Assembly: GCA_947492375.1 (NCBI GenBank)
Contig: CANLMI010000001.1
Span: forward strand, 372,001 to 436,000
DNA length: 64,000 nt
From: an uncultured Kordiimonas sp.
GTDB taxonomy: Bacteria; Pseudomonadota; Alphaproteobacteria; Sphingomonadales; Kordiimonadaceae
Reading direction: 5' to 3'
The notes beneath the pieces are model-generated. The model worked only from the letters and a program-made list of their open reading frames with translations. It had not been told where the DNA came from and made no database searches. The translations under genes were made by a program, and so were the position numbers. Below are positions 22,323 to 39,869 of this stretch, piece after piece (positions within the stretch are counted from its first letter, which is position 1; every line of letters starts with the position of its first letter).

Positions 22323-22844
22323 TTATTTCAATAAAGTGAAAAGTTTTTTGATACTTTGATCCGGTTCTTCATTTGCTGTGTCTATTATAATATCTACATC
22401 ATCCCAACGTTCATAGTGACGGGTTAAGACATCATCCCAGGTTGGTAATTTAAGATTTGATACTGTTGTTTTTCTGTTTTCTACACGTATCCGGTGTTCC
22501 ACTTTATCAGAGCATTGCACTTCTATTTGTATATACTTGACATCTAGTTGGGTCGCTACTTTCTTCCAAGCTTCACGTGAAGCCGAAATTGCGTTTACCG
22601 AGTCCGCTATTACGGATATTCCGTTTCTTAGATTGTCAGAAGCAATGTCGAATGCTGCTTGATAACCTTTGTCGTATTTTAGCGAACCACATACATTTTT
22701 GATGGCCTGTTCAATTGTGTCAACGCGGAGGTAAGCAGAATTAATATAGCCAGCTAAGGATTGAACTAGTTCTGATTTCCCAGTACCGGGTAACCCACCA
22801 AAGATGTATAATATTGCGGGTGATGAATGTTGGCTTATAGACAA
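22323..22844 (-). CDS. P-loop kinase-like ATPase
   Basis: A 173-residue protein with Walker A GGLPGTGKSEL (about residues 16-26), a DTIEQAI segment after strand 2, and RVENRKTT in the lid region, as in the small P-loop kinases related to gluconate kinase, chloramphenicol phosphotransferase and zeta toxins. The substrate is unknown. It starts with TTG, 6 bp after the ceramide-synthase-like gene, and is therefore probably in its operon. It is more AT-rich than that gene. A role in phosphorylating a sphingoid or small molecule is conceivable but unsupported by sequence. Confidence 0.65.
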   Translation of the reverse strand: MSISQHSSPAILYIFGGLPGTGKSELVQSLAGYINSAYLRVDTIEQAIKNVCGSLKYDKGYQAAFDIASDNLRNGISVIADSVNAISASREAWKKVATQLDVKYIQIEVQCSDKVEHRIRVENRKTTVSNLKLPTWDDVLTRHYERWDDVDIIIDTANEEPDQSIKKLFTLLK

Positions 22845-22850
22845 TAATTG

Positions 22851-23990
22851 TTAGAGAATAGTCTTCTCAAATATCCCGTAGGTTTTATATTCTTCGCAGC
22901 CGATATCGATGAGGATAGAGCGCATGCCTTCGTTTTCATCTAAAATCCAGCCAAGCTCGCCCCAATATGCACCGCGCTCCATCACCTGGTCAGTGCTGTA
23001 ATCGATCATCCACATAGCCATCGCCGCACCAACGGGGCGTCTTTGGAACGCTTGCTTTACACCCATTAAGGGCACGCGCATGCGGCCTTCCTTTTTGCTA
23101 AGGATACGGCGCGATAGCAGCTTGAAAACATTGAAAGGGAACAGGCTGCCCCCAAAATCCTTGATGTCGTCATTGAGGTCAGGGATTGTTACCATAAAGG
23201 CAACAGGCTCGCCGTCATATTCACAGATTACTGTGCGGTGAGGTTTCAGAATAAGTTTTAGGCTCGTTGCAAGATGTTCGCCCTCTGCCTGTGTAAACGG
23301 TGTAAAGCCCCAATTGTTCGCCCACGCGTCTGATACGATATCAATGATATGGTTGATATCACGGTCGTAATTTTTCATATCCATTTCGCGCAGGATGACA
23401 CGCTTGTTGCGCTTGGCGGCTGTAACGATCCGCTTCATCTTTTCCGGGAAGCCCTTTAATAGATCAAGTTCATAGGCGATCAGGTCATGCGCTTTATTGA
23501 GGCCATAACTTTCGACCCACTCTTGATAATCTGGCTTGCCGTGAGGCATTAGGAAGCAGGGCGGGGTATCAAACCCGTCAACCAGCATGCCACATTCTTC
23601 CTTTGGTGATAATGACCATGGCCCTTGCATGGTTTGCATACCGCGCTCTTTAAGCCAATCTTCGGCTGTTTTGAGAAGTGCGTGCGCTGTTCGCTCATTA
23701 TCGGCTTCAAATAGACCAAAATACCCTAGGTCAGGGCCCCATTTTTCCTGCGCCAGCTTATCAATCTGTGCTGAAATACGCCCAACAGTTTTTCCCTCTT
23801 TTTCTGCAAGCCAAAGCTGAACTTCAGCATTATCGAAAAAGGGGTTCTTCTTAGGGTTTAAATCTTCGAGTTTTAGAAAGGTTAAAGGCTGAACCCAGTT
23901 CGGGTCAGCCTTATAATGATCGTGGGTCATGCGAATGAAGGCCTTTAGGTCGGCCTTCATTTCGACTTTGCGAATGGATAAATCACTCAC
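22851..23990 (-). CDS. bcerS: GNAT-type acyltransferase, probable bacterial ceramide synthase
   Basis: A 379-residue protein of the YghO-like N-acyltransferase family. In Caulobacter a member of this family, encoded near the serine palmitoyltransferase operon, acylates the sphingoid amine and is called bCerS; it is unrelated to eukaryotic ceramide synthases. Family marks seen are DPNWVQPL near residue 32, FFDNAEVQLWLAEKEGKTVGRISAQI, GPWSLSPKEECGMLVDGFD and the C-terminal GELGWILDENEGMRS. No membrane segment is evident. It follows a fatty-acid hydroxylase by 12 bp and precedes a P-loop kinase by 6 bp. The four other ceramide genes are 10-13 kb away in this window, which strongly supports the assignment. 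The start is GTG with a weak Shine-Dalgarno. Confidence 0.8.
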   Translation of the reverse strand: MSDLSIRKVEMKADLKAFIRMTHDHYKADPNWVQPLTFLKLEDLNPKKNPFFDNAEVQLWLAEKEGKTVGRISAQIDKLAQEKWGPDLGYFGLFEADNERTAHALLKTAEDWLKERGMQTMQGPWSLSPKEECGMLVDGFDTPPCFLMPHGKPDYQEWVESYGLNKAHDLIAYELDLLKGFPEKMKRIVTAAKRNKRVILREMDMKNYDRDINHIIDIVSDAWANNWGFTPFTQAEGEHLATSLKLILKPHRTVICEYDGEPVAFMVTIPDLNDDIKDFGGSLFPFNVFKLLSRRILSKKEGRMRVPLMGVKQAFQRRPVGAAMAMWMIDYSTDQVMERGAYWGELGWILDENEGMRSILIDIGCEEYKTYGIFEKTIL

Positions 23991-24002
23991 GAGGGTATGA
24001 AC

Positions 24003-24797
24003 CTATGTCGCTTCGGAGTTGTTGATGTGTGAGCTGGTTTTGTAGGTTGCGCGTTTTTCCCGAGGGCGCCTGTTATCAACGCCGCCAGATGCTTCGGCAA
24101 CCCACGGATATTTCTCGGCTTCTTCCTCGGTATAACCGAGATTAAAGACGGTTTTACTTTTAACAGGGCGATCCTTACGCAGGTAATAGGTGCCAAGCAA
24201 ACGATCCCAACCAAAGTTGGTGATGCCATAATTTCCATCTTCGTTGTGGAAATGGTGCATCATGTGCTGTTCTTTGATGTGCTTAAGCCATTTTGCTTTT
24301 GGCTTGAAATTCAAATGTTCAATACAGTGGAAAAATTCGTTCAGAATTGTCCACAGGCATCCGGTAGCAAAGGCCGCAAGTGCACCGCCCCAGCCGCCAA
24401 TCAGGTAACCTGCTGGCATGTTAATGAGCGCGAGCGGTGGCACTGTTGTATGTAGCGCACCGAAGAGAACCTCAAGGTTATGAGGGTCTTGATGGTGATC
24501 ATAATGCACACGTTTCCAGAATTTTGCAGTGAACGGAATTTTATAAAGCCAGCGACCATGCAGGATAAATCTGTGTGTTACATACCAGCTAGGGGCAAAA
24601 ATAAAGATGGCGAATGCAATTGAAACCGCTACGCTAAGGATGCTTTCCGCATAAAAATATGTCGCTACATAACCTGCTATCACAAGCGCGATATACACTT
24701 GAATAGCATAATAGCTGAAAAATGCCGGAAACAATTCCTTAAAGCCCATTTTGTCAAGATAATGGGTTTCGCGTTTAAAAAGGCCACTTGCTGCCAT
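24003..24797 (-). CDS. Fatty-acid hydroxylase / sterol desaturase family membrane enzyme
   Basis: A 264-residue integral-membrane di-iron enzyme. Hydrophobic segments lie at about 27-45 and 52-72, with further ones near 115-140. The three His clusters are HRFILH, HYDHH and HCIEH with HMMHHFH, the pattern of the fatty-acid hydroxylase superfamily that hydroxylates acyl or sphingoid chains using oxygen. It is the first gene of an operon whose second gene is the ceramide synthase candidate, so a hydroxylated sphingolipid (2-hydroxyacyl or C4-hydroxy base) is a reasonable inference. GGAGAG lies 7 bases before the ATG. Other members act on carotenoids or sterols. Confidence 0.83.
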   Translation of the reverse strand: MAASGLFKRETHYLDKMGFKELFPAFFSYYAIQVYIALVIAGYVATYFYAESILSVAVSIAFAIFIFAPSWYVTHRFILHGRWLYKIPFTAKFWKRVHYDHHQDPHNLEVLFGALHTTVPPLALINMPAGYLIGGWGGALAAFATGCLWTILNEFFHCIEHLNFKPKAKWLKHIKEQHMMHHFHNEDGNYGITNFGWDRLLGTYYLRKDRPVKSKTVFNLGYTEEEAEKYPWVAEASGGVDNRRPREKRATYKTSSHINNSEAT

Positions 24798-24920
24798 TAA
24801 TATCTCTCCGTCTGCGCCGATGGTTTTTGTATATGATCTACGATCAAAGTTTCGATCTGGCGCTTACTAAAATTTGTGCGCTTATATCAAAATGCTTACG
24901 ATCAGGCAATCCTTGTCGGA

Positions 24921-26495
24921 TCAATTACTTGTGGTCTTTGGTCGCACCGGCGAATGGTTATCAATTTTTTTCTTAAGCGAAGGCTTTATAAACCGGCCAA
25001 ATTTACCCAAGGCACACAGGTCATCATCATGAAACCCAAACCTAAAAATAACAAAGAGTGCGATTAACAATGATGTTGTGGCAATAATAAGGCTAAAGGG
25101 GCTTGGTAAATTATTTACATAGAGAGATAAATTCCAAATTAGCCCTGCATTTATTAAGGCAACAATAAATGGCCTTAAGGTTTCGGTAGAATAGGGGGAA
25201 AGTTTAAATAAAACCCGCGCCTGAATTAAATTGAGGAAGGCGGTAACATTCATGCCGATAGCAGCGCCAATAGCTGCCCCTGTCACACCGTAATCGGGAA
25301 TAAGATAGTATCCGATGATATAGAGGGTAACTATGCCTGTTAGGCCGTTTATCGCAGGTAAGAGGCGGTGCCCGAGCATTTCAATAATTGCGCTTGCCGG
25401 GCCTGTGGATGCTTCGATCATTCTGCCAAGTATCAAGCATATGATTGCTGTGAATGCGGCAAAGAATTCAGGCTTCATGATGCTTAAAACATCGGGCGCA
25501 GCAAGATAAATGGCTGCCCCGAACGGAAGGGCGAGAGCAAGTGAAAGGCGTGTTGCAAAGGCGTACATGTCTTGAAGGGCTCTGCGATCGCCTTCGCCGT
25601 CACGTTCCGCTGCCAAGGGAGCCATAACATATTCAAATGTAATACGAATGCCTTGTAAAACACTCGCTATTTTGCGTGCAACGGCATAATAGCCGCTTGC
25701 CATTGCGCCAGCGGCGCCTGGTAGCAATATATTGAGGAAGATAACCGGAAATTCGCTAAATAATTTTTTGATCATGTTGGAGGGCATAACCGAAAAACCG
25801 TACTGGCGCATTTCGCGTTGCTGTTCGCCGAGCATTGGCGCTTTCATCAATTTTGACAAAGAATAATAACGTGACAGAAGCTTAATCGCTATCAAAGACG
25901 TAATTAGTACACTGACAAGGTGAGCAAGGAATAATCCGTAAGTTAAAAAACCCAGGAGGGCAAAGATAATAGCTGCGACAAGGCGGATACCTTGTTCATA
26001 GAAAATACGAACTTTAATTTCCGGCCCGAAGGTTCGGGTTGCCCGGATGGCCGCGGTTGAAACTTCAACGAATGTCCAGAAAGGTAAAACCCATATATAT
26101 AGGCGTATGATATTTACCAAATCACCGCTTTGTGCCTCAGCAGCATTTAAGAAATTAGAAATATATGGGGCGATGATTGTTCCAAGGAGCGCCATTATAA
26201 TTGAAATGACAAGGCTTAACTTTATAGCATGCCCGGCAACATGGTCAGCACAGTCACTTTTCATGCGAGGAACATATCGCTGTAATGTTGTTGTCATTGC
26301 CATTTCTGAAAAGGCGGTAGAAACTTTTACGTAACTCCATAAGGCGGCAAATAGGCCAAATATCTCAGCGCCGTAAAACCATGAAAAAGCTATGATTGAA
26401 AGTGCTTCAATAATAGCGCCCATACGGCCCAGAAAAACATAACCTGCACCACCAGCGAGGCGGTGATTTTGATTTTTGAAATCAATTTCAGTCAT
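24921..26495 (-). CDS. MOP-superfamily lipid/oligosaccharide flippase
   Basis: A 524-residue polytopic membrane protein with about 12 to 14 hydrophobic segments, in the Wzx/MurJ-like polysaccharide-export branch of the MOP superfamily (FLGRMGAIIEALSIIAFSWF at the start, FSEMAMTTTLQRYVPRM, GVTGAAIGAAIGMN near 420). Such proteins flip lipid-linked glycans or lipids across the inner membrane. Its ATG overlaps the lptG stop (ATGA at 26492-26495), so it is translated with lptG and lptF. Its substrate could be an LPS precursor or, given the flanking genes, a glycosylated sphingolipid; sequence alone cannot decide. Confidence 0.8.
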   Translation of the reverse strand: MTEIDFKNQNHRLAGGAGYVFLGRMGAIIEALSIIAFSWFYGAEIFGLFAALWSYVKVSTAFSEMAMTTTLQRYVPRMKSDCADHVAGHAIKLSLVISIIMALLGTIIAPYISNFLNAAEAQSGDLVNIIRLYIWVLPFWTFVEVSTAAIRATRTFGPEIKVRIFYEQGIRLVAAIIFALLGFLTYGLFLAHLVSVLITSLIAIKLLSRYYSLSKLMKAPMLGEQQREMRQYGFSVMPSNMIKKLFSEFPVIFLNILLPGAAGAMASGYYAVARKIASVLQGIRITFEYVMAPLAAERDGEGDRRALQDMYAFATRLSLALALPFGAAIYLAAPDVLSIMKPEFFAAFTAIICLILGRMIEASTGPASAIIEMLGHRLLPAINGLTGIVTLYIIGYYLIPDYGVTGAAIGAAIGMNVTAFLNLIQARVLFKLSPYSTETLRPFIVALINAGLIWNLSLYVNNLPSPFSLIIATTSLLIALFVIFRFGFHDDDLCALGKFGRFIKPSLKKKIDNHSPVRPKTTSN

Positions 26496-27676
26496 GACGG
26501 TTTATTATTTGTTGACTGTTTGTTGAATATACGGTTTGCGATTTTTGCGGGCATTCTGCCCTCTTCAGTATTGAATAATACAGCATAACCGACAAGAAGG
26601 AATAACAAAAATGGTGACCAAGCTGCTAAAAGGGGCGGGGCAACACCAAATTCCCCCATCGCAAGCATAAAATTATCTGCTACAAAAAAGCTGAAGCCGA
26701 GTGCCATGCCAAATACCAGCCGAATGATTAGATTACCAGCGCGTGTTACACCAAAAGCCGCAACCGCAGCGAGTAAAGGCATGAGCAAGGATGAGGCTGG
26801 GGCCGCAAATTTTTGTAGGAAACTTGCCATCGGTTGGTCTGTTGATAGCCCTTCACGCTCCAATTGCTGGATGCTCTTCCATAGCTGAATAAATGAAACA
26901 TGGTCCGGGCGAACGGTGAGGGCAAGAAAACGTTCAGGTTCAACTGAAATATTCCATTTTATTGAAGGTGTTATCGCCAAATTATGACTTTCAACATCAA
27001 AGCGCCTTACTTCGTGCAATGTCCATTCATTGTTTTGATATATAGCAAAATCAGCTCTGGCCATTGCGCGTAAATGCCCGATGTCACTTTTTTCAAAGAT
27101 AGAAATAACGTCAAGGACAACCCTGTTGCCAATTTCACTGACATTTTCAACCAGGATCAGTGTATTTTCTTCTTTGATCCAGACACGGCCAACTGGCCCT
27201 TCATTGGGTGGCAGGTCGATTGCAAAATCATTTGCTTCCCAGTATTCCAGTTCAGCATTTGCATCAACGACGACAGTTTCATTAAAAACAAAGTGAACGC
27301 CAGCAATCATGAAAGTCGCGAGGCCAAGCGGTAATAAAATGCGGTGTGCTGATAGCCCGGCCGCTTTCATGACAACAACTTCACTGTTCTGATTGAGCGT
27401 CGCGAGAGTGAGAAGGCTGGCAATCAATGTTGCAAACGGTGCAAATTGGCTAGCTAGTTGGGGTGCTCTCAAGGCAATGAAAGATACAATAGAAACCCAT
27501 GAAGCCCCTTCTGCGGCGAGAACATCATCTGCTTGAGCAAGCAGAACAAGCATCATTAATACAGATACTAACCCGAGTAAAATTCCGATAAACCGGGTAA
27601 TCAGCATTTTTACCATGTAGCGCGACAGTGTTTTAGAAGGTATCATTGTGCGCCTAATATTTCTTATTATGCTCAT
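26492..27676 (-). CDS. lptG: LPS export ABC transporter permease LptG
   Basis: A 394-residue YjgP/YjgQ-family permease. It has a cytoplasmic start (TLSRYMVKMLITRFIGILLG), two N-terminal membrane segments, a large periplasmic beta-jellyroll domain (about 140-265), and three to four C-terminal membrane segments including FGVTRAGNLIIRLVFGMALG. With LptF and the LptB ATPase it extracts LPS from the inner membrane and feeds LptC/A. The ATG at 27676 overlaps the lptF stop (ATGA), so the start is set there, although the frame extends to 27751. It is the second gene of lptF-lptG-flippase. It is assigned G rather than F by gene order. Confidence 0.88.
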   Translation of the reverse strand: MSIIRNIRRTMIPSKTLSRYMVKMLITRFIGILLGLVSVLMMLVLLAQADDVLAAEGASWVSIVSFIALRAPQLASQFAPFATLIASLLTLATLNQNSEVVVMKAAGLSAHRILLPLGLATFMIAGVHFVFNETVVVDANAELEYWEANDFAIDLPPNEGPVGRVWIKEENTLILVENVSEIGNRVVLDVISIFEKSDIGHLRAMARADFAIYQNNEWTLHEVRRFDVESHNLAITPSIKWNISVEPERFLALTVRPDHVSFIQLWKSIQQLEREGLSTDQPMASFLQKFAAPASSLLMPLLAAVAAFGVTRAGNLIIRLVFGMALGFSFFVADNFMLAMGEFGVAPPLLAAWSPFLLFLLVGYAVLFNTEEGRMPAKIANRIFNKQSTNNKPS

Positions 27677-28863
27677 GCTTCGGCTTTCATGATCCAACGT
27701 GTCAAACGGCGAAGTGGCGTGGAAATTACATCCCACACTTTGTCGACCCATGCTAACGGGTCGCCGCCAACTTTATAGGCAGCAACACGAAACAGGCCAA
27801 TACTTACAACTGCAAACAACGCGAATAGGGCCCAAATAGTCAGGTATGGTGAAACACCACTGGCAACGGCAGTTTCCATGCCCTCCATAACTTCATTATA
27901 TACGATCAAGAGCGCGATGCTAACAACAATCCCGGTGCTTCGGCCTGTACGTTTGTTCGTTAATCCCATAGGGATTGCGAGGAAAGGTAATACTAGAAAA
28001 CTCAGGCTATGCATTAATCGCCAGTGATAATTGCCGCGTATAGAGTTTCTTAATTCTTCTTCCAGAATGGGATTATCCTTTTCAGCCCATAATTCAGGTA
28101 GGGTCATTTCAAGTTCTTCACCGCCGCGCCCCCGAAATGGTGCGCTGTCGGGTAAGGGGATTGTTATATCTTGCTGGCTGAAGGTGAGAACCCGAGGTTT
28201 GTTCTGGCTTTCGTTCAGGTCGATCAGGGTGCCATCATATAAGCGTAGTAAAATAGTTTGTTCATCGCTTGTTGCAAAGAAACCGCCCCTTTCTGCTGTA
28301 ACGGCAACACTGCCTCGGCTGTCTCGGCGTTCCATGAAAATACCTTTTAATTCAGCACCTTCATTGTTTGATTCTTCAATCCTGAGAACCATGTTATCGC
28401 CGAACTCAACAAATTCACCAACACGTATACTAGCCCCGAGCGCTCCGCTTCGAAGGTCAAATACCATGCCTTCATATGCATAGCGACTATAGGGTTGAAT
28501 CCATCCAACAAGTATTGTGTTTATGACCAATAACAATAGCGCCAGAAGAAAGGCAGGGCGAGCCAAGCGAAATAGGCTGATACCAGCATTTGTCATGGCG
28601 TCATATTCACTCGACATTGATATTTTTCTAAAGGCAATCAGGGTGCCGAGAAGCATGCCAATTGGTAAAGCCAACCCCATATAGTGGGGGGTTAAGTTTG
28701 CCAGCATGTTAAAAACCACACTGACCGGGCCGCCTTCGTTCACAACAAAATCGAATAGTTTCAGCATCTTCTCTAAAATAAGAAGAAGCGCAGCTATTGA
28801 TAAGGTCACAATGAGAGGGCCTGTTATCTGGCGAATAATATATTGATCTAAACGATTAAACAT
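27673..28863 (-). CDS. lptF: LPS export ABC transporter permease LptF
   Basis: A 396-residue YjgP/YjgQ-family permease, the partner of LptG. It begins MFNRLDQYIIRQI, the usual amphipathic start, followed by membrane segments at about 15-35 and 57-77, a periplasmic domain of about 150 residues, and C-terminal membrane segments with IPMGLTNKRTGRS, a conserved coupling loop. Genes for LptB, C and A are not in the window. The neighbouring ceramide genes raise the possibility that this pair is a paralogue serving sphingolipids; it may equally be the only lptFG of the genome. Its upstream region carries a four-unit half-site array. Confidence 0.9.
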   Translation of the reverse strand: MFNRLDQYIIRQITGPLIVTLSIAALLLILEKMLKLFDFVVNEGGPVSVVFNMLANLTPHYMGLALPIGMLLGTLIAFRKISMSSEYDAMTNAGISLFRLARPAFLLALLLLVINTILVGWIQPYSRYAYEGMVFDLRSGALGASIRVGEFVEFGDNMVLRIEESNNEGAELKGIFMERRDSRGSVAVTAERGGFFATSDEQTILLRLYDGTLIDLNESQNKPRVLTFSQQDITIPLPDSAPFRGRGGEELEMTLPELWAEKDNPILEEELRNSIRGNYHWRLMHSLSFLVLPFLAIPMGLTNKRTGRSTGIVVSIALLIVYNEVMEGMETAVASGVSPYLTIWALFALFAVVSIGLFRVAAYKVGGDPLAWVDKVWDVISTPLRRLTRWIMKAEA

Positions 28864-28909
28864 ATATTGCGGCTACACTGGTTCCCGATGAGTTGCAAGT
28901 AAGAAATTC

Positions 28910-28943
28910 ACAGTATCCATACTATTCATAGTATTCATACTGT
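28910..28943. promoter_or_regulatory. Ordered array of four 7-bp half-sites upstream of lptF
   Basis: The units ACAGTAT, ATACTAT, ATAGTAT and ATACTGT are separated by exactly 2 bases each (CC, TC, TC). They make a 34-bp sequence whose outer pair and inner pair are both perfect inverted repeats. It lies 47 bp before the lptF start and 137 bp before the divergent DUF2141 gene, so it could bind a regulator of both. Confidence 0.6.
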
Positions 28944-29080
28944 AACGAATAGTTCAGTAGTAATTTACAATGATTTTGACGAATATACGATATCGATCGT
29001 AATTATACACCAAGTGCGACACAATTTCGCCACCATCGAGATGCATTTGCTTATGAGTAGTGAATTATTTGGAGATATTT

Positions 29081-29662
29081 ATGCTTAAGAAGCAAAATAT
29101 TCGATCAACAATTGTAACTGGGCTGTTGGGGCTGGCTATAGCTGGTGTTTCTAACGAGTTTGTGGCGGCACAGGCTGTTGCAGATGAAAATTTGCCTTCC
29201 AGCAACAAACGGGACGTTACTGACATTCATTCAATATGCTCACCGGGTGAAAATAATGCGTCTGTACTTGTTCATGTAGAAAATATAGCAAGTGTTGAGG
29301 GTAATATTCGTGCGCAAGTATATAGCGATAAGGAAGAAGACTTTCTTGAAAAAGGTAGAAAGTTGGTCCGTATTGATATCCCTGTAGAGGCTAATGAACA
29401 ATCTGTGTGTGTTCCTTTACCAGCAACAGGCAACTATAGTTTGGTAATTTTGCATGATAAAAATGCGAACGGTAAAGCAGACTTCTTTTCTGAAGGTTTT
29501 GGATTTTCAAATAACCCTAAGCTAAGGTTTGGCCCGCCGGATGTGGAAGACGCAGCATTTTCTGTCCATGAAGGGGTTAATCAAATGACTGTGAACCTTC
29601 AATATATTCTTGGTACTGATGATGCAAAGAAAAAGAAACGCCGGAGCGTCAGGCGTCGCTAA
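29081..29662 (+). CDS. Secreted DUF2141 protein
   Basis: A 193-residue exported protein: a signal peptide (KKQNIRSTIVTGLLGLAIAG, cleavage near VAAQA) followed by the DUF2141 beta-sandwich domain at about 60-175, recognised by NIRAQVYSDKEEDFL, LVILHDKNANGKADFF and GFGFSNNP. It ends in a basic tail (KKKKRRSVRRR). The domain resembles a calcium-binding Ig-like fold through its D-K-N-A-N-G-K segment. The function is unknown, but the gene stands at the head of a plus-strand set containing a lipid kinase. ATG 29081 is preferred because TTGGAGAT lies 6 bases upstream. Confidence 0.82.
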   Translation: MLKKQNIRSTIVTGLLGLAIAGVSNEFVAAQAVADENLPSSNKRDVTDIHSICSPGENNASVLVHVENIASVEGNIRAQVYSDKEEDFLEKGRKLVRIDIPVEANEQSVCVPLPATGNYSLVILHDKNANGKADFFSEGFGFSNNPKLRFGPPDVEDAAFSVHEGVNQMTVNLQYILGTDDAKKKKRRSVRRR

Positions 29663-29829
29663 ATAGATAAATTCCTTGGAACCAGAATTCATCATTTACC
29701 CAGTTATTATGCTTCGTTAAGTTTACATGCTAGGGCTTGAGTTTTCTGGTTTTTTGCACTAAGACCTAATCCATTATTTCAAATTTATGACAATTACATC
29801 AATGATTTCATTAATGGGTAGAACGTGCG

Positions 29830-30825
29830 GTGCAACTTGATCAGTCAAAATTTAACAGTGGTGCTGCTGTGCCTTTAATCGCTGTGCTCTCAAACCCTAA
29901 ATCAACCACCAATGCAGCAGGCATGGGGGAAATCCGTAAAGTTATTAACGAAAGCGCAAATTTGCTGCATTTCGAGCTCGACGGTGTTGAAACAATGGAT
30001 GAAGCACTTGAGCTGTTCTCGCGTGCAAATCCTGCGTTAATTATTGTTAATGGCGGTGATGGTACAATTGGTGTTGCCCTGCAATCATTATTATATCGTA
30101 ATCCTTTTTCTGTAACGCCCCCTATTGCTTTTCTGCCGGGCGGCAAAACAAACATGACGGCCGCTGATTTGGGCATGAAAGGCGACCCGATCAAGGTTTT
30201 AAAACGGTTAATTAAACTCGTTAAAGCAGGTGAGCTATCTGAACGCCTCACCACTCGTAACTTGATCGAGCTGGACCTGGACGATGGAAATGAGCCGAAA
30301 GTGGGCACATTTTTTGGGACAGCGGGGATCGTTAAGGGTATTTACTGGTGCCGGGAAAACGCTTATGCGAAAGGGCTACCTAATTCGCTTGCTCATGTTT
30401 GGTCGGTTTTCAAATTAGTGACAAGTGCATTTGGCTTTGGCAAAGATAAGGCCATGATGATTTCTGACCCCATGAATGTTGTTGTGCCTGGAAAGGCGCG
30501 AATAAGCGGTCAATTTGCTTCTGTGACGGCAACAACTTTGGATACATTAATCTTGGGGTTAAAACCATATAGTACGGAAGGCTTGGGCGGGCTTCGGTTT
30601 GCTGCGGTTGAAACAGGTGGGCGTAATGTGTTCAGGGCGCTATGTGGTATAATAACAGGTAAATTTGGCAAGAAGTACATTCAAGGCGTTCATACAAGGC
30701 GTGGTGATCACATTCGTATTGAGGGAAGTGACCCTGTAACTTTAGATGGGGAAATGTATACACCGTTGGCTGGAAAGCCGATATTGCTAAAAGGGGATAA
30801 AACCCTTACATTTGTGAAATTATAG
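29830..30825 (+). CDS. Lipid kinase, DAGK catalytic family; probable ceramide kinase
   Basis: A 331-residue soluble kinase of the diacylglycerol/sphingosine/ceramide kinase superfamily. The nucleotide-binding motif is VNGGDGTIGVALQSLL near residue 78, with SNPKST at the first strand (about 20) and GGKTNMTAADLG near 110. The C-terminal beta domain ends RIEGSDPVTLDGEMY, the conserved site near the lipid pocket. In Caulobacter a homologous DAGK-family enzyme beside the ceramide operon phosphorylates ceramide, so ceramide 1-phosphate formation is inferred here. The start is GTG. It is followed after 18 bp by a nucleotidyltransferase-like gene. Confidence 0.78.
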   Translation: MQLDQSKFNSGAAVPLIAVLSNPKSTTNAAGMGEIRKVINESANLLHFELDGVETMDEALELFSRANPALIIVNGGDGTIGVALQSLLYRNPFSVTPPIAFLPGGKTNMTAADLGMKGDPIKVLKRLIKLVKAGELSERLTTRNLIELDLDDGNEPKVGTFFGTAGIVKGIYWCRENAYAKGLPNSLAHVWSVFKLVTSAFGFGKDKAMMISDPMNVVVPGKARISGQFASVTATTLDTLILGLKPYSTEGLGGLRFAAVETGGRNVFRALCGIITGKFGKKYIQGVHTRRGDHIRIEGSDPVTLDGEMYTPLAGKPILLKGDKTLTFVKL

Positions 30826-30843
30826 ATTGTTCACGTTTGTGAA

Positions 30844-31806
30844 ATGCAAAAAGAGTATCAGCACATGCCTGATTTAGCAGCGTTTGACGCGCTCGATAGT
30901 TTTTTTCAAAACGAATGGCAACGTGATGTGCCGGAAGCGATAAGAGTTGCGGCAACTGATATCTCCAAAAGATATGGTTCTGCGGTAAGTGGTGTACTAT
31001 TTTATGGTTCCTGCCTACGTACCGGTGAAATTGAAGATAAAATTCTCGACTTTTATATTATCGTAGATAGTTACCGTGAAGCTTATGACAAGAGATGGCT
31101 CGCGGCAGCAAATAAACTAATTCCACCGAATGTGTTTTATTGTGAAGTAGAGCATGAAGGCCTTACTGTCAGGTCTAAGTATGCAGTATTGTCATTGGAA
31201 GATTTAGAATATAGATGCAGTCAGAAATGTTTAAATGTTTCTGTTTGGGCCCGTTTCTGCCAGCCATGTCTCTTGATGATACCTAAAACCGAGATAGTGT
31301 CCACTCGTATTCGGAATGCTATATCCAATGCTGCTTTAACTATGATTGCGCATATTCTACCGGTTTGCAGTGAAACAAGGGCTTCAAAAGATTTATGGGT
31401 TACTGCCTTTGAGCATACTTATGCTTCAGAAGTTCGCTCCGAACCGGACGGCAAGGGGCTTGAGATTTATGAGCTTGATAGCGATCGTTATGATCGGTTG
31501 ACCCCTTTGTTGTTAAAGCAATTAGGGTCAGAAACCTTGGATACAGAGCGTAAACAACCTGCTCGGTGGCCTTTGATCAAGAATAGGGTTCAATGGTTCT
31601 TTAGGCGTATGAATGGTAAATTCGTCAGCCTTGCCAGACTAATCAAGGCATCAATGACATTTGACGGTGGGATTGATTATCTGGCATGGAAAATTGGGCG
31701 CCATTCTGGTGTTAAAATTGAAGTGACAGAAAAAATGCGTAAGCGGCCAGTTTTATCCGGTATTACCTTATTTTGGAATTTACGCCGCAAAGGTGCCTTT
31801 AAGTAA
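30844..31806 (+). CDS. Nucleotidyltransferase-like protein, possible sphingolipid head-group enzyme
   Basis: A 320-residue soluble protein. The segment GVLFYGSCLRTGEIEDKILDFYIIVD (about 49-75) has the GS-X-G plus D-X-Y layout of the Pol-beta nucleotidyltransferase fold, though the second acidic residue is displaced compared with canonical GS...DxD. The rest is helical with a basic C-terminus (RKRPVLSGITLFWNLRRKG). It lies 18 bp after the lipid kinase. In Caulobacter the ceramide-phosphoglycerate genes follow the kinase in the same way; a head-group transferase role is inferred from this, not proven. ATG 30865 is a possible later start. Confidence 0.6.
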   Translation: MQKEYQHMPDLAAFDALDSFFQNEWQRDVPEAIRVAATDISKRYGSAVSGVLFYGSCLRTGEIEDKILDFYIIVDSYREAYDKRWLAAANKLIPPNVFYCEVEHEGLTVRSKYAVLSLEDLEYRCSQKCLNVSVWARFCQPCLLMIPKTEIVSTRIRNAISNAALTMIAHILPVCSETRASKDLWVTAFEHTYASEVRSEPDGKGLEIYELDSDRYDRLTPLLLKQLGSETLDTERKQPARWPLIKNRVQWFFRRMNGKFVSLARLIKASMTFDGGIDYLAWKIGRHSGVKIEVTEKMRKRPVLSGITLFWNLRRKGAFK

Positions 31807-31842
31807 ATTTAATCTGCTGACTGATGATAAAGAAGGCAGTCG

Positions 31843-32850
31843 ATGATGTTAAATCACCGTATCATGGAATTAGGTTTACTGATGTTTTTAACTGGAACAT
31901 CGGAGCAAACCCTTGACACCCCCCTTGAGCTTGATATCCCGCTTGATTGTAACATTAACCAGAATTGCTGGGTCGTAAATTATTTTGATCAGGATCCAAG
32001 CGACAAAGCTGCTGATTATCGATGTGGCCCGCATAGCTATGATACCCATGCCGGTACTGATTTTGCTATTCCTGATTTGGCGGCAATGCGTGAAGGTGTT
32101 TCTGTCGTTGCAAGTGCAAGCGGTACTGTTGTTGGTGTTCGCAGTCACATGCAGGATATATCCGTTGCGGAGATAGGCCGCAGTGCTCTTAAGGGGCTCG
32201 ATTGTGGAAATGGTGTTAGCATTGATCATGGTAATGGTTGGCGCACACAATACTGCCATATGCGACGAGATTCTATTGTTGTAAAAACGGGTGACCGTGT
32301 TGACACAGGTGATAAGCTTGGCTTGGTTGGGCTTTCAGGAAACACTGTCTTTCCTCATGTGCATTTAAGTGTGTTTAGGGGGGACAACAAAGTTGATCCA
32401 TATAGTGTTAACGGAGAGTTATCCTGCACAGGTACTCCTGAATTTTTGTGGGCAAGCCATGTAAAAAGCGATTTAAAGTATATGCCAGCAGTGCCATATA
32501 TTGCCGGGTTCACCGCAGAAAGAGCGGATAGTAAAAAAGCCCGAAATGGCAGTTATCATGATAAAATTTTCGATGTTGATACACCGGTCATCACATTTTG
32601 GGTTGATCACTATAACCTGCGAAAAGGCGATAAATTGACAATGAGTATTTTGGCCCCCAACGGCGAGGTGATTAGCGAAAATACTAATACTATGGATGAA
32701 AATAAGGCGCGTTGGTTTCAGTTTATTGGGCGGCGGAAGCCTAAATCCGGTTGGCCGAGAGGCACTTATATGGCCGAGGTTAAAGTTTATCCATTCGATC
32801 AGGATAGTTCAGCAGTTAGGCGTAAAGTTGTAACACTAGAGATTGAATAA
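31843..32850 (+). CDS. M23-family metallopeptidase (LytM domain)
   Basis: A 335-residue protein with a LytM zinc peptidase domain. Zinc ligands appear in HAGTDFAI (HxxxD, about residue 67) and HVHLSVF (about 175). The segment between is typical: VVASASGTVVG, GNGVSIDHGNGWRTQYCHM, VKTGDRVDTGDKLGLVGLSGN. The N-terminus is short, mildly hydrophobic and not a clear signal peptide, and a C-terminal region of about 120 residues resembles an Ig-like domain. It probably acts on cell-wall peptides. It is 36 bp after the nucleotidyltransferase-like gene and ends at a hairpin terminator. Confidence 0.83.
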   Translation: MMLNHRIMELGLLMFLTGTSEQTLDTPLELDIPLDCNINQNCWVVNYFDQDPSDKAADYRCGPHSYDTHAGTDFAIPDLAAMREGVSVVASASGTVVGVRSHMQDISVAEIGRSALKGLDCGNGVSIDHGNGWRTQYCHMRRDSIVVKTGDRVDTGDKLGLVGLSGNTVFPHVHLSVFRGDNKVDPYSVNGELSCTGTPEFLWASHVKSDLKYMPAVPYIAGFTAERADSKKARNGSYHDKIFDVDTPVITFWVDHYNLRKGDKLTMSILAPNGEVISENTNTMDENKARWFQFIGRRKPKSGWPRGTYMAEVKVYPFDQDSSAVRRKVVTLEIE

Positions 32851-32851
32851 A

Positions 32852-32884
32852 AAAGGCAGCTTATAACCTATACAAGCTGCCTTT
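32852..32884. terminator. Bidirectional hairpin terminator
   Basis: An 11-bp perfect stem (AAAGGCAGCTT at 32852-32862, AAGCTGCCTTT at 32874-32884) closes an 11-base loop between the convergent M23 peptidase and serine palmitoyltransferase genes. It is flanked by a short T-rich tract on each strand. Confidence 0.85.
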
Positions 32885-32905
32885 CTATAAGAAAACAAGA
32901 TAGCT

Positions 32906-34120
32906 TTATTCAGCGGCAACATCAGTCAATTGTAAATCAACTTTTTCTGCTGTTTTGATAAAGCGGTCGATGATCAAATCAATTTGTTCGGAAGTGTGCT
33001 GGGCACAAATACTTGCGCGCATGAGGTTTACACCGCCAGGTGTTGCAAAAGCAGCAGCCATATTTACGTAAACACCAGCTAGTATAAGCTCTTCCCAGAA
33101 CAAGGTTGCTTGATGTAAGTCGGGCAGGCATACAGCAATGATCGGGCTTTCGGCTTTCTCTGTCGCCATTGTAAAGCCAGCGTTCTTGAGGCCAGCGTGC
33201 AATCGTTTGGAATTTTCCCAAAGATGGGCACGGCGATTGCCTGCGCGTTTTATACCTTCGATCGATTTTGTTGCTGATGCTACGACTGAAGGGGGTAGCG
33301 ACGCTGTAAACATATACGGCCTGCAAACAGTGCGTAAAATATCAAATTTGGGATGATTGGAAACGGCAAAGCCGCCGACGGTTCCAACAGATTTTGAAAA
33401 TGTACCAACGATAAAGTCAGACAGATGTTCTACGCCAATCTCTTCTGCAACTCCGCGGCCATTTTCGCCGCAAAATCCCATAGAGTGCGCTTCATCAACT
33501 AACGTCATTGCACCGTATTTTTTGGCAACTTCCAACAGCTCTTTCAAAGGGGCTGCATCGCCGAGCATTGAGTATATACCTTCAACGACAACAAGCTTGC
33601 CAGCGTCTTCCGGCAATCGGCGTAATCTTTTTTCCAGGCTGTCAGCGTCGTTATGCTTAAAACGAACAACCGTTGCATTTCCCATAGCGGCGCCATCATA
33701 AATTGATGCATGGCTGTCTGCATCCAGCAAAAGATAGTCGTCTTTACCTGCTAACACAGATATCAACCCCAAATTTGCCTGGTACCCTGTTGAGAATACC
33801 ATGCAGCTTTCCATGCCATAGAAATCTGCAAGAGTTTGCTCTAAAGCTTTGTGACCGCCATAAGTGCCGTTTAATACACGAGAGCCTGTAGTTCCAGTGC
33901 CAAAGTCATCAAGGGCTTTTTTAGCCGCTTCAACAGCTTCTTCAGCGAATGTCATTCCCATATAATTGTTAGTGCCGGCAAGAATAGTATGCCTGCCGTT
34001 TATCATGGCTTCGGTCTCGGATATTATTTCATCCATGACGACCTTGAACGGGTCTGCTTTTGTAAAGGGCAGGGCAGATTTTTGCGCAACAATTGGGTCG
34101 AACTTATCAAATAGGTCCAT
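32906..34120 (-). CDS. spt: Serine palmitoyltransferase
   Basis: A 404-residue PLP enzyme of the alpha-oxoamine synthase family that condenses serine with an acyl thioester to give 3-oxosphinganine, the first step of sphingolipid synthesis. It shows NNYMGMTF, GSRVLNGTYGGH, DADSHASIYDGA (His stacking on PLP), VDEAHSMGF and the Schiff-base Lys in GTFSKSVGTVGG near residue 242. 8-Amino-7-oxononanoate synthase and KBL share the fold. The adjacent acyl carrier protein, reductase and acyl-ACP synthetase, the same set as in Caulobacter and Sphingomonas, make serine palmitoyltransferase the best call. It lies 4 bp after the acpR-like gene, is last in the operon and ends at a hairpin. Confidence 0.9.
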   Translation of the reverse strand: MDLFDKFDPIVAQKSALPFTKADPFKVVMDEIISETEAMINGRHTILAGTNNYMGMTFAEEAVEAAKKALDDFGTGTTGSRVLNGTYGGHKALEQTLADFYGMESCMVFSTGYQANLGLISVLAGKDDYLLLDADSHASIYDGAAMGNATVVRFKHNDADSLEKRLRRLPEDAGKLVVVEGIYSMLGDAAPLKELLEVAKKYGAMTLVDEAHSMGFCGENGRGVAEEIGVEHLSDFIVGTFSKSVGTVGGFAVSNHPKFDILRTVCRPYMFTASLPPSVVASATKSIEGIKRAGNRRAHLWENSKRLHAGLKNAGFTMATEKAESPIIAVCLPDLHQATLFWEELILAGVYVNMAAAFATPGGVNLMRASICAQHTSEQIDLIIDRFIKTAEKVDLQLTDVAAE

Positions 34121-34124
34121 CGGC

Positions 34125-34373
34125 TTATCCGTTATCAGCTACAATTTTATCTACAGCATCAGCAACATGTGCGATTGTCTCTAAGTCTGGTAAAAGATTA
34201 AGAGGTATCACGATATCAAACTCATCTTCGATCTCTGCAACTAAATCCATTACTGTTAGCGAATCTAATTCAAGATTGGTTGCGAACGTTGTCTCGGGGG
34301 CTAGCTCGATACCTTTTTTATTAAACGGGGTTATAAGCTCGTAAATTGTATTGAGTGTCTCGGCGTTTGCCAT
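34125..34373 (-). CDS. acpR: Acyl carrier protein dedicated to sphingolipid synthesis
   Basis: An 82-residue acyl carrier protein. The phosphopantetheine site is Ser38 in LELDSLTVMDL, followed by the acidic recognition helix VAEIEDEFDIVIP. It differs from the canonical AcpP DSLD motif (here DSLT). In Caulobacter the equivalent small ACP in the ceramide operon is required for ceramide synthesis, carrying the acyl group loaded by the neighbouring synthetase to serine palmitoyltransferase. It sits 4 bp before spt and 70 bp after the reductase gene. Confidence 0.9.
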   Translation of the reverse strand: MANAETLNTIYELITPFNKKGIELAPETTFATNLELDSLTVMDLVAEIEDEFDIVIPLNLLPDLETIAHVADAVDKIVADNG

Positions 34374-34443
34374 ATTTCATTGTCCGATTTTAATTTCTAA
34401 GTAATCAACTGGTATATTTAGAACCACCGCATAAGCCAATTGA

Positions 34444-35403
34444 TCATAAATGTCCATTCTGACGATACCATTCTAGTGTGTTTTGTAAACCTGCTTCAAG
34501 GCTAAAACGTGGCGAGTAATCTGGTATCACAGGTCTTCGACTGTTTTTTATTGCCCAGTCAGGATGTGAAAGGTGATATGCGCTTGATAGTGTTAACATT
34601 GATGGTTTTCTCGATATTTGGGCGAATAAATCACTGAATATTCCGAGAAAGGCAAGAACAGGAAAGGGTACAGGTACGATTCTGGGGCGTTTTCCATCAA
34701 TTTTAAAAACCGCTTCTGAAATATCCTGTAATCGATACCCGCCTGCCTTGCCGTCATCTAATTCAACAATATCATTATTATAGCCGGTATCCGGCAGTTT
34801 TCTGATTGCCTCAGCTAAGTCAGCAACATGTATCATCGAAAAACGGTTTTTTGCGCTACCTGGTGCCGGAAGAAAACCAAACCGGCTCGATTTAAAGATT
34901 TTTAAAATTTCCATATCGTGAGGGCCGTATATGGCTGGTGGGCGCACAATTGTCCACCTAAATGGCCATTTACCTGACTTTAGCGCACCTTCGGCTGCGT
35001 TTTTGCTGGCACCATAATTCGATATTTGTGGTTCTCTAGCCGCGAGACTTGAGATGAGGATGAAACGATCAACTTCATTGGACTTCGCGGCTTTTAAGAG
35101 GTTTTTGGTGCCTCCTAAATTCACATCAAAGAAAGTATTTCGATTTAGCGCTTTGGTTAAGCCGGCACAATGAACAACAATATTTGCGCTCTTACACAGA
35201 TTGTTAAGCGCTTTTGTATCATCTAAATCACCTTCGACCCAGGTGATTTGGTCGGTGTTGGTTTTGGGGCTTCTTGTTAATGCATTTATTTTAAAACCTG
35301 CATTAACGTATTGTTCTACAATGTGTTTGCCGAGAAAACCTGTTGCCCCGGTCAAAGCTACTGTTTGACCGGAATTAGGGGATGGCGCTTTTGATTGCTT
35401 CAT
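34444..35403 (-). CDS. cerR: NAD(P)-dependent SDR/epimerase-type reductase, probable ceramide reductase
   Basis: A 319-residue extended short-chain dehydrogenase. The Rossmann motif is GATGFLGKHIV (about residues 19-29), the catalytic pair is YGASK near 130, and the region VHCAGLTKALN with RPPAIYGPHDMEILKIF is typical of NAD-dependent epimerases. In the Caulobacter operon the homologous gene, CerR, reduces the 3-oxo group on the ceramide precursor. Its ATG shares one base with the stop of the acyl-ACP synthetase (TAATG at 35403), so the two are translationally coupled. There is no membrane segment apart from a hydrophobic stretch at about 230 (VPFPVLAFLGIF). Confidence 0.85.
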   Translation of the reverse strand: MKQSKAPSPNSGQTVALTGATGFLGKHIVEQYVNAGFKINALTRSPKTNTDQITWVEGDLDDTKALNNLCKSANIVVHCAGLTKALNRNTFFDVNLGGTKNLLKAAKSNEVDRFILISSLAAREPQISNYGASKNAAEGALKSGKWPFRWTIVRPPAIYGPHDMEILKIFKSSRFGFLPAPGSAKNRFSMIHVADLAEAIRKLPDTGYNNDIVELDDGKAGGYRLQDISEAVFKIDGKRPRIVPVPFPVLAFLGIFSDLFAQISRKPSMLTLSSAYHLSHPDWAIKNSRRPVIPDYSPRFSLEAGLQNTLEWYRQNGHL

Positions 35404-37151
35404 TAGCTGGCGATGGCCTGTAAGTGGCCTGATAGATACTGGTTGCGAGCCTTGGACCTGCTTAATTTACCCGAAGACGTTCTGGGAAGTGAGCGAGGGG
35501 GGACAAGTTCGACCATACAGTTGATGCCAGTTATGCTTTGTATGTGGCTGCGCATTTCATCGATAAAGTTTTCACGCTCTGAAGAGTCTGAAACACGGCA
35601 CTGGGCGAGTATCATTGGAATTTCTTCAGCGTTTTCGCCCGGTACAGAAATCGCTGCAACGTCGCCGTTTTTAACACCTGGTAATTGCTCGACAGCCCAT
35701 TCGATATCTTGCGGCCAATGATTACGACCATTTACAATGATCATGTCTTTGGCGCGGCCAACGATATAGAGGTAACCATTTTTCATGTAACCCATATCGC
35801 CAGTATCTAACCAGCCGTCTTCGCTAAGCACAGCGCGTGTTGTTTCCGGGTCGTTGAAATATTCGCGCATTACTGATGTGCCGCGAACAAGCACCCGTCC
35901 AACACTGGCCTCAGGAAGCTGATTATCTTCTTCATCACGAATATGAAGCTCGTATTCAGGTAGTGGTTTACCGCAGTTTACCACTTCTCTTTTACGGGCG
36001 TTATCAGCAGAACCATTAACCATTACATGGCGGCCGCCGCTCAAAAGCGCTTCTTCAACAAGGTCGATTTCGATACCTTTACCAACTTCGGCAAAACTTA
36101 CGCCGAGTGTGCATTCGGCAAGACCATAGCTTGGTAAAAAAGCTGTGTCACTGAAACCAACTGACGCAAATGTATTTGTGAACGCACGCATAACGTCTGG
36201 GCGAATCATATCGCCGCCAATGCCTGCGACCCGAAGCTTTGATAGGTCTAACTCATCCATCCCATTACGGCGCGAAGATACTCTGCGCGAACAGATATCA
36301 AATCCAAATGTTGGGCTATAGGTAATTGTGCCGCCGTTCATGCTCATGACGCGTAGCCAGCTTAAGGGGCGGCGTGCAAATTCTTCTGTAGGGATAAAAT
36401 CAACAGAAACCTGACAGTTAACTGTTGTTAATAGCGTACCAACCAAGCCCATGTCGTGGTAAAATGGTAACCATGAAATGCATCGGTCATCTTCACGAAG
36501 TTGAACACCGTGAGCACCCATACCATATGTGTTGGCCAATAATGACTTATGAGTCACTGCAACGCCGTGAGGGAAACGTGTACTTCCTGATGAATATTGA
36601 AGGTAAGCAAGATCCTCTGTAGACGGAAGGCGGTGTTCGCCGTCTTTTTCAGAGTTTTCATACTCTTCTGTAGACCCTTTAAACAAGAGATCCATATCTT
36701 CGGTTGCAGCTTCGATAATTTGCTCCATAAATTCTGGAGCCATGATGCCATTGGCTTTGCAGCTTTTCATTTGCATGCGAAGTTGTGCAACATACCCTTC
36801 TTTACCACCAAACGAGGTTGGAAGAGGTAAGGGAACCGGAAGTACGCTTGCGTACTGGCAACCAATAAAAAAGGCGACAAAATTAGCGCTTGTTTCTGCA
36901 ATAAGCGCAATTCTATCGCCTTTTTGGAAGCCTAACCCTGATAATTTACGACCAATAACATGAGCACGATCCCGAATTTCGCGCCATGTTGTGGATTCTA
37001 CAAGGTTACCACGTGCATCATAAAAATTTGCCCCGCGCACACCTTTGGCAGCATATTCAATCGATTCAACAAGAGTATCAAAATCTGAATACCGACGAGG
37101 AAGAGTCGGATCTAGTGTAGGAGTAATAGTCATTGTATCGATATCAACCAT
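35403..37151 (-). CDS. aasR: Fatty acyl-AMP ligase / acyl-ACP synthetase for sphingolipid synthesis
   Basis: A 582-residue ANL-superfamily enzyme of the FAAL-like branch. It shows the adenylation P-loop LQYSSGSTRFPHGVAVTH near 190 (His in the place usually held by Lys), WLPFYHDMGLVG, PSYGLAECTLGVSF, DTGDMGYM and the hinge GRAKDMIIVNGRNHWPQDIE, then PRTSSGKLSRSKAR near the C-terminus with the catalytic Lys. It activates a fatty acid as acyl-AMP and loads the adjacent ACP. AGGGC lies a few bases before the ATG. First gene of aasR-cerR-acpR-spt; its upstream region contains a GTCCAA/TTGGAC dyad. Confidence 0.88.
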   Translation of the reverse strand: MVDIDTMTITPTLDPTLPRRYSDFDTLVESIEYAAKGVRGANFYDARGNLVESTTWREIRDRAHVIGRKLSGLGFQKGDRIALIAETSANFVAFFIGCQYASVLPVPLPLPTSFGGKEGYVAQLRMQMKSCKANGIMAPEFMEQIIEAATEDMDLLFKGSTEEYENSEKDGEHRLPSTEDLAYLQYSSGSTRFPHGVAVTHKSLLANTYGMGAHGVQLREDDRCISWLPFYHDMGLVGTLLTTVNCQVSVDFIPTEEFARRPLSWLRVMSMNGGTITYSPTFGFDICSRRVSSRRNGMDELDLSKLRVAGIGGDMIRPDVMRAFTNTFASVGFSDTAFLPSYGLAECTLGVSFAEVGKGIEIDLVEEALLSGGRHVMVNGSADNARKREVVNCGKPLPEYELHIRDEEDNQLPEASVGRVLVRGTSVMREYFNDPETTRAVLSEDGWLDTGDMGYMKNGYLYIVGRAKDMIIVNGRNHWPQDIEWAVEQLPGVKNGDVAAISVPGENAEEIPMILAQCRVSDSSERENFIDEMRSHIQSITGINCMVELVPPRSLPRTSSGKLSRSKARNQYLSGHLQAIAS

Positions 37152-39865: not shown

Positions 39866-39869
39866 AAGT

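Follow-up and report, generated by a model that had tools for sequence, protein, structure and literature searches.

A 15-kb block (positions 22323-37151) on contig CANLMI010000001.1 of an uncultured Kordiimonas sp. combines genes for ceramide synthesis with lptF and lptG, members of the family that exports lipopolysaccharide (LPS). We call the whole analysed stretch of 64,000 nucleotides the window, the block the island, and the window's own, Kordiimonadaceae-like genome G000. We think it likely that the island is a cassette that makes and exports a phosphorylated ceramide lipid in a bacterium without lipid A, in which the island pair LptF2G2 would extract the lipid into a retained LptC-LptA-LptD bridge. 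Gene content, synteny, the absence of two lipid A markers, the type of the LptFG pair and an empty LPS-type lptFG site can all be read directly from the DNA. As far as the open-licence PMC literature shows, a genome that lacks LpxC and LpxK and keeps the bridge, with its sole LptFG pair in a sphingolipid island, is new, as is the survey pattern described below.

A retained Lpt bridge in a genome lacking LpxC and LpxK

LpxC scored above its cut-off in none of the 59 genomes of the order, G000 included, although G014 gave one match below it; the controls from E. coli and Caulobacter were positive. LpxK had no match in G000. Lipid A synthesis is thus the part of an LPS export system that G000 lacks, as judged by these two markers, yet the exporter parts LptB, LptC, LptA, LptD, LptF and LptG are all present. 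A single LptC lies beside LptA and an ABC ATPase, in an intact lptC-lptA-ABC ATPase order, and the ATPase is probably LptB by its position after lptA. The single LptD stands in an intact lptD-surA-pdxA-rsmA order. There are exactly two LptF/LptG proteins, forming one pair, and both are encoded in the island. The export bridge has been kept although LpxC and LpxK are absent, which suggests that it now carries the sphingolipid, and in a genome without lipid A markers the lptFG pair becomes informative. G000 shares with the E. coli LptB2FGC-A-D exporter the LptF/LptG family, LptC, LptA, LptD and a probable LptB. It differs from that exporter in having no LpxC or LpxK, in a pair that falls outside the alphaproteobacterial LPS-type clade, and in carrying Asp-Asp in place of the K40-K41 of E. 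coli LptG.

The site at which LPS genomes keep their lptFG is empty in G000. In G149, G100, G161 and G059 the gene order is pepA-lptF-lptG-lptD-surA-pdxA-rsmA, with pepA 3.6 kb away in G100, so that LPS-type lptFG lies at the lptD locus in all four LPS genomes examined that have lptD there. G186 has the order of G149 but without lptD. In G000, pepA and lptD are 210 bases apart and no gene lies between them. The two genes are direct neighbours in nine of the 13 lptD loci examined from genomes with serine palmitoyltransferase (SPT) and without LpxC (G000, G032, G038, G082, G084, G098, G125, G155 and G180), with gaps of up to about 490 bases as measured by tblastn ends. pepA was not found in the lptD stretch of G111, G115, G173 or G194, and an LPS-type lptFG had no match in any of the 13 stretches.

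The association of SPT with LptFG is conserved across the order, which argues against chance. Of the 59 genomes, 55 carry SPT (E 1e-100) together with an LptF/LptG gene. The preliminary description of this DNA had proposed a synteny search in relatives, and the linkage was found there: 46 of the 55 have the two on the same contig and no more than 15 kb apart, 5 have them unlinked and 4 have them on separate contigs. Three small genomes of family f2 (G036, G047 and G056; 1.9-2.2 Mb, completeness 78-95%) have SPT and no LptF/LptG match, which may be real loss or gaps.

Two types of LptF and LptG in the Alphaproteobacteria

We scored LpxC, LptF/LptG genes, SPT (E 1e-80) and LptD in 143 Alphaproteobacteria with completeness of at least 95. 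LpxC was absent from 22, G180 and G194 being assigned to this group by inference. The number of LptFG pairs equalled the sum of LpxC and SPT, each scored as present or absent, in 131 of the 143 genomes (the five genes of G075 were counted as two pairs). Of 15 genomes with SPT and without LpxC, 14 have exactly one pair and G105 has none. Among the eight with both, seven have four or five LptF/G genes and G114 has two. Exactly two genes are found in 106 of the 113 genomes with LpxC alone; the exceptions are G072 (four), G191 (three), G078, G083, G122 and G196 (one each) and G184 (none). Seven genomes have neither marker, and these carry no LptF/G genes in four cases and two genes in G099, G102 and G158.

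LpxK was tested in 31 genomes. It was absent from all 15 genomes with SPT and without LpxC and present in all eight with both. It was also present in G099, G102, G132 and G158, which suggests that the lack of LpxC in these four is probably an assembly gap and that G099, G102 and G158 probably make lipid A. With this post hoc correction G132 becomes a misfit, G099, G102 and G158 fit, and the count is 133 of 143. Where both lipid A markers are absent, LptFG was kept in 14 of 15 genomes with SPT and in none of three without it (G063, G124 and G140; Fisher p 0.005, uncorrected for kinship). LptD is present in all 14 genomes that have SPT and LptFG and lack LpxC. In 12 of them no more than 15 kb separates the pair from spt; in G038 the two are unlinked, and G115 was not judged. 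Both states occur within family f26, in which G076 has LpxC and G173 does not.

Unrooted trees of 39 LptF rows and of 39 LptG rows each divide into 16 and 23 rows with support of 100/100, and we call these halves LPS-type and sphingolipid-type. The 16 comprise 11 pairs from genomes with LpxC and without SPT, the pairs of G074, G149, G172 and G186 that are not linked to spt, and the pair of G099, in which LpxC was not found, LpxK was found and SPT is missing. The 23 contain all 14 rows from genomes with SPT and without LpxC (12 of the 14 such survey genomes that have LptFG, plus G001 and G005). They also contain Sphingomonas parapaucimobilis and Roseomonas, whose LpxC and LpxK state was not tested, and the spt-linked pairs of G074, G149, G172 and G186, genomes in which LpxC and SPT occur together. 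This half is completed by a single pair from each of G075, G127 and G177, two of which adjoin cluster genes. The trees did not include the pair of G114 or the second pair in each of G075, G127 and G177. In both trees the window pair is sphingolipid-type and falls with the spt-linked pairs of the genomes that have both markers.

The two types also differ at LptG positions 40-41 (E. coli numbering). Both residues are basic in 13 of 16 LPS-type rows vs none of the 22 ungapped sphingolipid-type rows. In an LPS-bound structure, K40 touches the 4'-phosphate and K41 the inner core, according to the part of PMC6744409 that was available. Positions 34 and 136 gave no clean separation of the types, and the residue terms sought were absent from the accessible part of PMC11458178.

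When ten further copies from genomes of the order were added to a quick LptF tree, all ten fell on the sphingolipid-type side (SH-aLRT support 100), L170 on a long branch. Extra lptF copies from this side of the tree, together with lptG in L161 and L162, lie beside glycosyltransferase-4 genes in L161, L162, L164, L165 and L170, all from genomes of the order without LpxC. These loci also hold a shared family of about 310-350 aa with no Pfam match, and in L165 (6487-8925) an 812-aa open frame fuses an LptF domain (1-359) to a glycosyltransferase domain (439-772). It is possible that they are glycosphingolipid export modules.

We also lean towards a broader proposal, with somewhat less assurance than for the island itself. 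LptFG would be a swappable extractor specific for a lipid class. Several alphaproteobacterial families would have lost lipid A and the LPS-type lptFG by clean deletion from pepA-lptFG-lptD-surA, and kept LptD and a sphingolipid-type LptFG, along with LptC, LptA and LptB where checked. LptD would there be a sphingolipid translocon, and the extra LptF copies and the one LptF-glycosyltransferase fusion would be glycosphingolipid modules. Genomes with LptD and a single non-LPS LptFG pair but neither of the two lipid A markers amount to a natural experiment, in which the Lpt cargo should not be LPS. Should the proposal hold, Lpt would be a general exporter of outer-leaflet lipids whose extractors can be exchanged, and bacteria without lipid A would be a clean setting for finding out what LptF and LptG recognise.

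Predicted pathway and alternative explanations

From sequence we infer the substrates of the enzymes in this organism, the headgroup, and the transport of the lipid with its direction. AasR would charge AcpR, SPT would join the acyl-AcpR with serine, and acylation by CerS and reduction by CerR would yield ceramide. CpgB would then phosphorylate the ceramide, and CpgC, a Tam41-type protein, would probably convert the product to CDP-ceramide for a simple headgroup rather than for ceramide diphosphoglycerate (CPG2). The hydroxylase would modify the chain and the MATE-like protein may flip the lipid, which LptF2G2 and the housekeeping LptB would pull into the retained LptC-LptA-LptD bridge. In this scenario lipid A was replaced by the sphingolipid, the LPS extractor was deleted, and the sphingolipid extractor feeds the bridge that remained.

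The CDP-ceramide step is the natural prediction from the CpgC model. The preliminary description had called this protein nucleotidyltransferase-like. It has no Pfam match even at E 10, and its AlphaFold model (pLDDT 89.6) supports the call. The top three Protein Data Bank (PDB) matches are all Tam41 CDP-diacylglycerol (CDP-DAG) synthases, the best being Tam41 with CTP (E 9.5e-7, TM-score 0.48-0.55). The predicted fold is like that of mitochondrial and bacterial Tam41, whereas identity is 13-14% at a TM-score of about 0.5 and the predicted substrate is ceramide-1-phosphate. CpgC is thus probably a CTP:ceramide-1-phosphate cytidylyltransferase that makes CDP-ceramide. Place and homology to a Roseomonas cluster protein, with no direct comparison, make it the likely counterpart of CC_1161 (cpgC), for which the available text of PMC11324152 had already noted an InterPro CDP-DAG-synthase signal.

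The Caulobacter crescentus region CC_1168-CC_1152 is described in the same text (Olea-Ozuna 2024) as 17 genes that include lptC2, lptF2, lptG2, a flippase, a ceramide kinase and a CDP-DAG-synthase-like protein. The preliminary description had held that lptFG and a flippase go beyond the described ceramide clusters; since this region was already published with them, that claim of novelty was wrong. Its authors proposed that second-type Lpt genes move phosphosphingolipids, did not investigate transport, and called the route of bacterial sphingolipids to the outer membrane unknown; the accessible part of PMC11087976 states that no sphingolipid flippase or transporter had yet been identified. We made the comparison through this description and a Roseomonas cluster, not from Caulobacter sequences. 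The window shares with the Caulobacter region aasR, cerR, acpR, spt, cerS, the ceramide kinase, cpgC, lptF2, lptG2 and a flippase. It differs in that the hydroxylase, the M23 peptidase and the P-loop kinase are added and no lptC2 lies in the island, and its genome lacks LpxC, LpxK, LPS-type lptFG and any cpgA or cpgD match. The sole PF06835 match in G000 is on contig C2 beside LptA, so no second LptC lies near spt.

A plasmid cluster of Roseomonas mucosa (L038, NZ_CP147881) has homologues of aasR, cerR, spt, cpgC, cpgB, DUF2141, lptF, lptG, hydroxylase and cerS, and an annotated acyl carrier protein. An annotated oligosaccharide flippase stands in place of the window's MATE-like protein, which has no match there, and cpgA, cpgD, a metallophosphoesterase and an NTP transferase go beyond the window. 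Measured against a Caulobacter-type CPG cluster, the island has the five ceramide genes, linked second-type lptF and lptG with a flippase of marginal family score, and cpgB and cpgC by family, Roseomonas homology and fold, their activities being predicted.

This likeness could mean an ordinary Caulobacter-type cluster in an organism that makes CPG2. We judge that very improbable, because with Roseomonas proteins as queries neither cpgA nor cpgD had a match in G000 at E 1e-5. cpgA (E <1e-5) and a strong cpgD (E <1e-50) occur in exactly the same eight of 22 genomes and in none of the eight tested genomes of this order. Nine further genomes have weaker cpgD-family matches (best 6e-18, in G002), which we take to be paralogues; CpgD is treated in the available parts of PMC12275187 and PMC13228409. 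Still less credible is LPS made by divergent genes, with the island LptFG as its normal exporter: LptD is retained and LptF and LptG exceed the NCBI cut-offs for LPS exporters, but LpxC and LpxK are both missing although their controls were positive, the LPS-type site is empty and the island pair belongs to the other clade. The alternative that deserves most weight, though we consider it unlikely, is that the Lpt line exports another outer-membrane lipid or glycan-lipid and the sphingolipid genes are adjacent by common regulation or history only. It would explain why G105 has ceramide genes and no LptF/LptG or LptD match, and why extra sphingolipid-type LptF copies in the order adjoin glycosyltransferases. 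However, those modules may themselves serve glycosphingolipids, and the two LptFG types sort with SPT and LpxC, respectively.

Several observations weigh against export of a sphingolipid by LptF2G2. The absence of lipid A genes covers LpxC and LpxK; LpxA, LpxB, LpxD, LpxH/I and KdtA were not searched for. G105 (L137; a 5.4-Mb single contig) has an SPT cluster with cerS and no match for LpxC, LpxK, LptF/G or LptD; making a sphingolipid apparently does not require Lpt, and the link is not obligatory. G114 has LpxC and SPT but a single LptFG pair, and SPT and LptFG are unlinked in G038, G039, G044, G049 and G053. G099, G102 and G158 keep an LptFG pair without LpxC or SPT; they have LpxK, and the G099 pair is LPS-type. 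The genomes are related, so the Fisher p-values overstate their independence. Finally, LptG K40E/K41E does no harm to E. coli growth according to the accessible part of PMC5548808, so the Asp-Asp signature is only suggestive and is kept as a hint.

Gene parts, local additions and neighbours

The open reading frames of the block agree with the coordinates given for it beforehand (Table 1). Gene order suggests three transcription units. Two of them, aasR-cerR-acpR-spt (37151 to 32906) and lptF-lptG-MATE-hydroxylase-cerS-kinase (28863 to 22323), run on the minus strand, and between them DUF2141-cpgB-cpgC-M23 (29060 to 32850) runs on the plus strand. All five ceramide functions of the preliminary description are present by family or homology, and its lipid kinase, hydroxylase, lptFG, flippase, DUF2141 and M23 families were borne out. 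For SPT the top model is NF047603 (607.2 bits, below that model's cut-off of 670), K243 lies within an invariant TFSK block (alignment A1), and the nearest named relative among the matches listed is Eilatimonas milleporae (79% identity).

Table 1. Genes of the island and its edge, with window positions
Feature	Position	Strand	Evidence
aasR, acyl-ACP synthetase (fatty acyl-AMP ligase; ACP, acyl carrier protein)	35403..37151	-	NF006624, 812 bits (cut-off 600); neighbour of cerR-acp-spt also in relatives
cerR, 3-oxo-sphingolipid reductase, SDR/epimerase family (NAD-epimerase)	34444..35403	-	PF01370, 2e-23; homologous to Roseomonas and E. coli cluster epimerases
acpR, dedicated ACP (PP-binding)	34125..34373	-	PF00550, 1.7e-10
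spt, serine palmitoyltransferase	32906..34120	-	NF047599, 605.5 bits (cut-off 500)
M23 peptidase	31843..32850	+	PF01551, 1.3e-17
cpgC-like Tam41-fold nucleotidyltransferase	30844..31806	+	AlphaFold model; aligned with 31 relatives (A3)
cpgB-like ceramide kinase (DAGK family, DAGK_cat)	29830..30825	+	PF00781, 7.8e-15; adjoins cpgC in most loci having cpgB
DUF2141 protein, predicted beta-rich fold	29060..29662	+	PF09912, 4e-25; model pLDDT 79.6
lptF2, sphingolipid-type LptF	27673..28863	-	TIGR04407, 239.4 bits (cut-off 230); clade support 100/100
lptG2, sphingolipid-type LptG	26492..27751	-	TIGR04408, 278.7 bits (cut-off 240); clade support 100/100
MATE-like flippase	24921..26495	-	MatE, 3e-5, 24.1 bits, marginally below Pfam cut-off 24.9
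Fatty-acid hydroxylase (FA_hydroxylase)	24003..24797	-	PF04116, 3e-18
cerS, GNAT-type ceramide synthase	22851..23990	-	PF00583; homologous to E. coli YghO (1e-84) and Roseomonas cluster protein (7e-84)
P-loop kinase (AAA_33)	22323..22844	-	Pfam family match
recX, conserved flank, island edge marker	37643..38272	+	PF02631; adjoins aasR in Kordiimonad and f34 loci

We compared spt loci from named and coded genomes, some cut by contig ends and several ending near cerS. Kordiimonad and f34 loci have in common aasR-cerR-acp-spt, cpgC-cpgB-DUF2141 and lptF-lptG-MATE-cerS, with the MATE-like gene kept between lptG and cerS and recX at the edge. The hydroxylase adjoins cerS in many members of the class and is absent from several Kordiimonad loci. 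Among the loci examined, M23 lies between cpgC and spt solely in the window and in G001 of the same genus; weak M23 matches in L138, L084, L095 and L100 sit kilobases away from spt. Neither G001 nor any of the other loci examined, several of which end near cerS, has a homologue of the 22323 kinase. Neither gene is conserved, and both were rejected as pathway genes; they are probably local additions outside the lipid pathway. The earlier suggestion that the whole block serves one modified, exported sphingolipid thus gains from the conserved synteny and the LptFG type as a prediction of joint use, and loses these two members.

DUF2141 is a candidate accessory of the export path. In 53 of 74 loci it is found no more than 1.2 kb from a sphingolipid-like lptF, one whose best score is with the lptF of the window; the set includes the window, many close relatives and a few genomes counted twice. 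Structural matches to its model are weak, the one below E 0.001 having a TM-score of 0.27, so we claim no mechanism for it. PDB sequence searches with DUF2141 and with CpgC gave nothing useful. The position of DUF2141 makes it a possible counterpart of CC_1157, a gene that the available text of PMC11324152 calls probably unrelated.

An E. coli island (L039 9576-17355; L182 5455-13234) has aasR-cerR-acp-spt followed by an extra lptG-lptF, beside the cerS homologue yghO. At least 80% of the 6.2-kb query is found in 4014 of 5426 complete E. coli genomes, and 4140 of 4141 places are chromosomal. The LptG of this island has Asp-Asp at positions 40-41, and its LptF and LptG are unplaceable by type, with mean identities of 0.18-0.22 to both. 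spt in E. coli B has been published (PMC9386255), and the accessible part of that text has no occurrence of 'lpt'. Adjoining the window's own island, positions 38255-40823 hold an open reading frame with a MobA/MocA-like nucleotidyltransferase domain and an XdhC family gene, which are probably related to the molybdenum cofactor.

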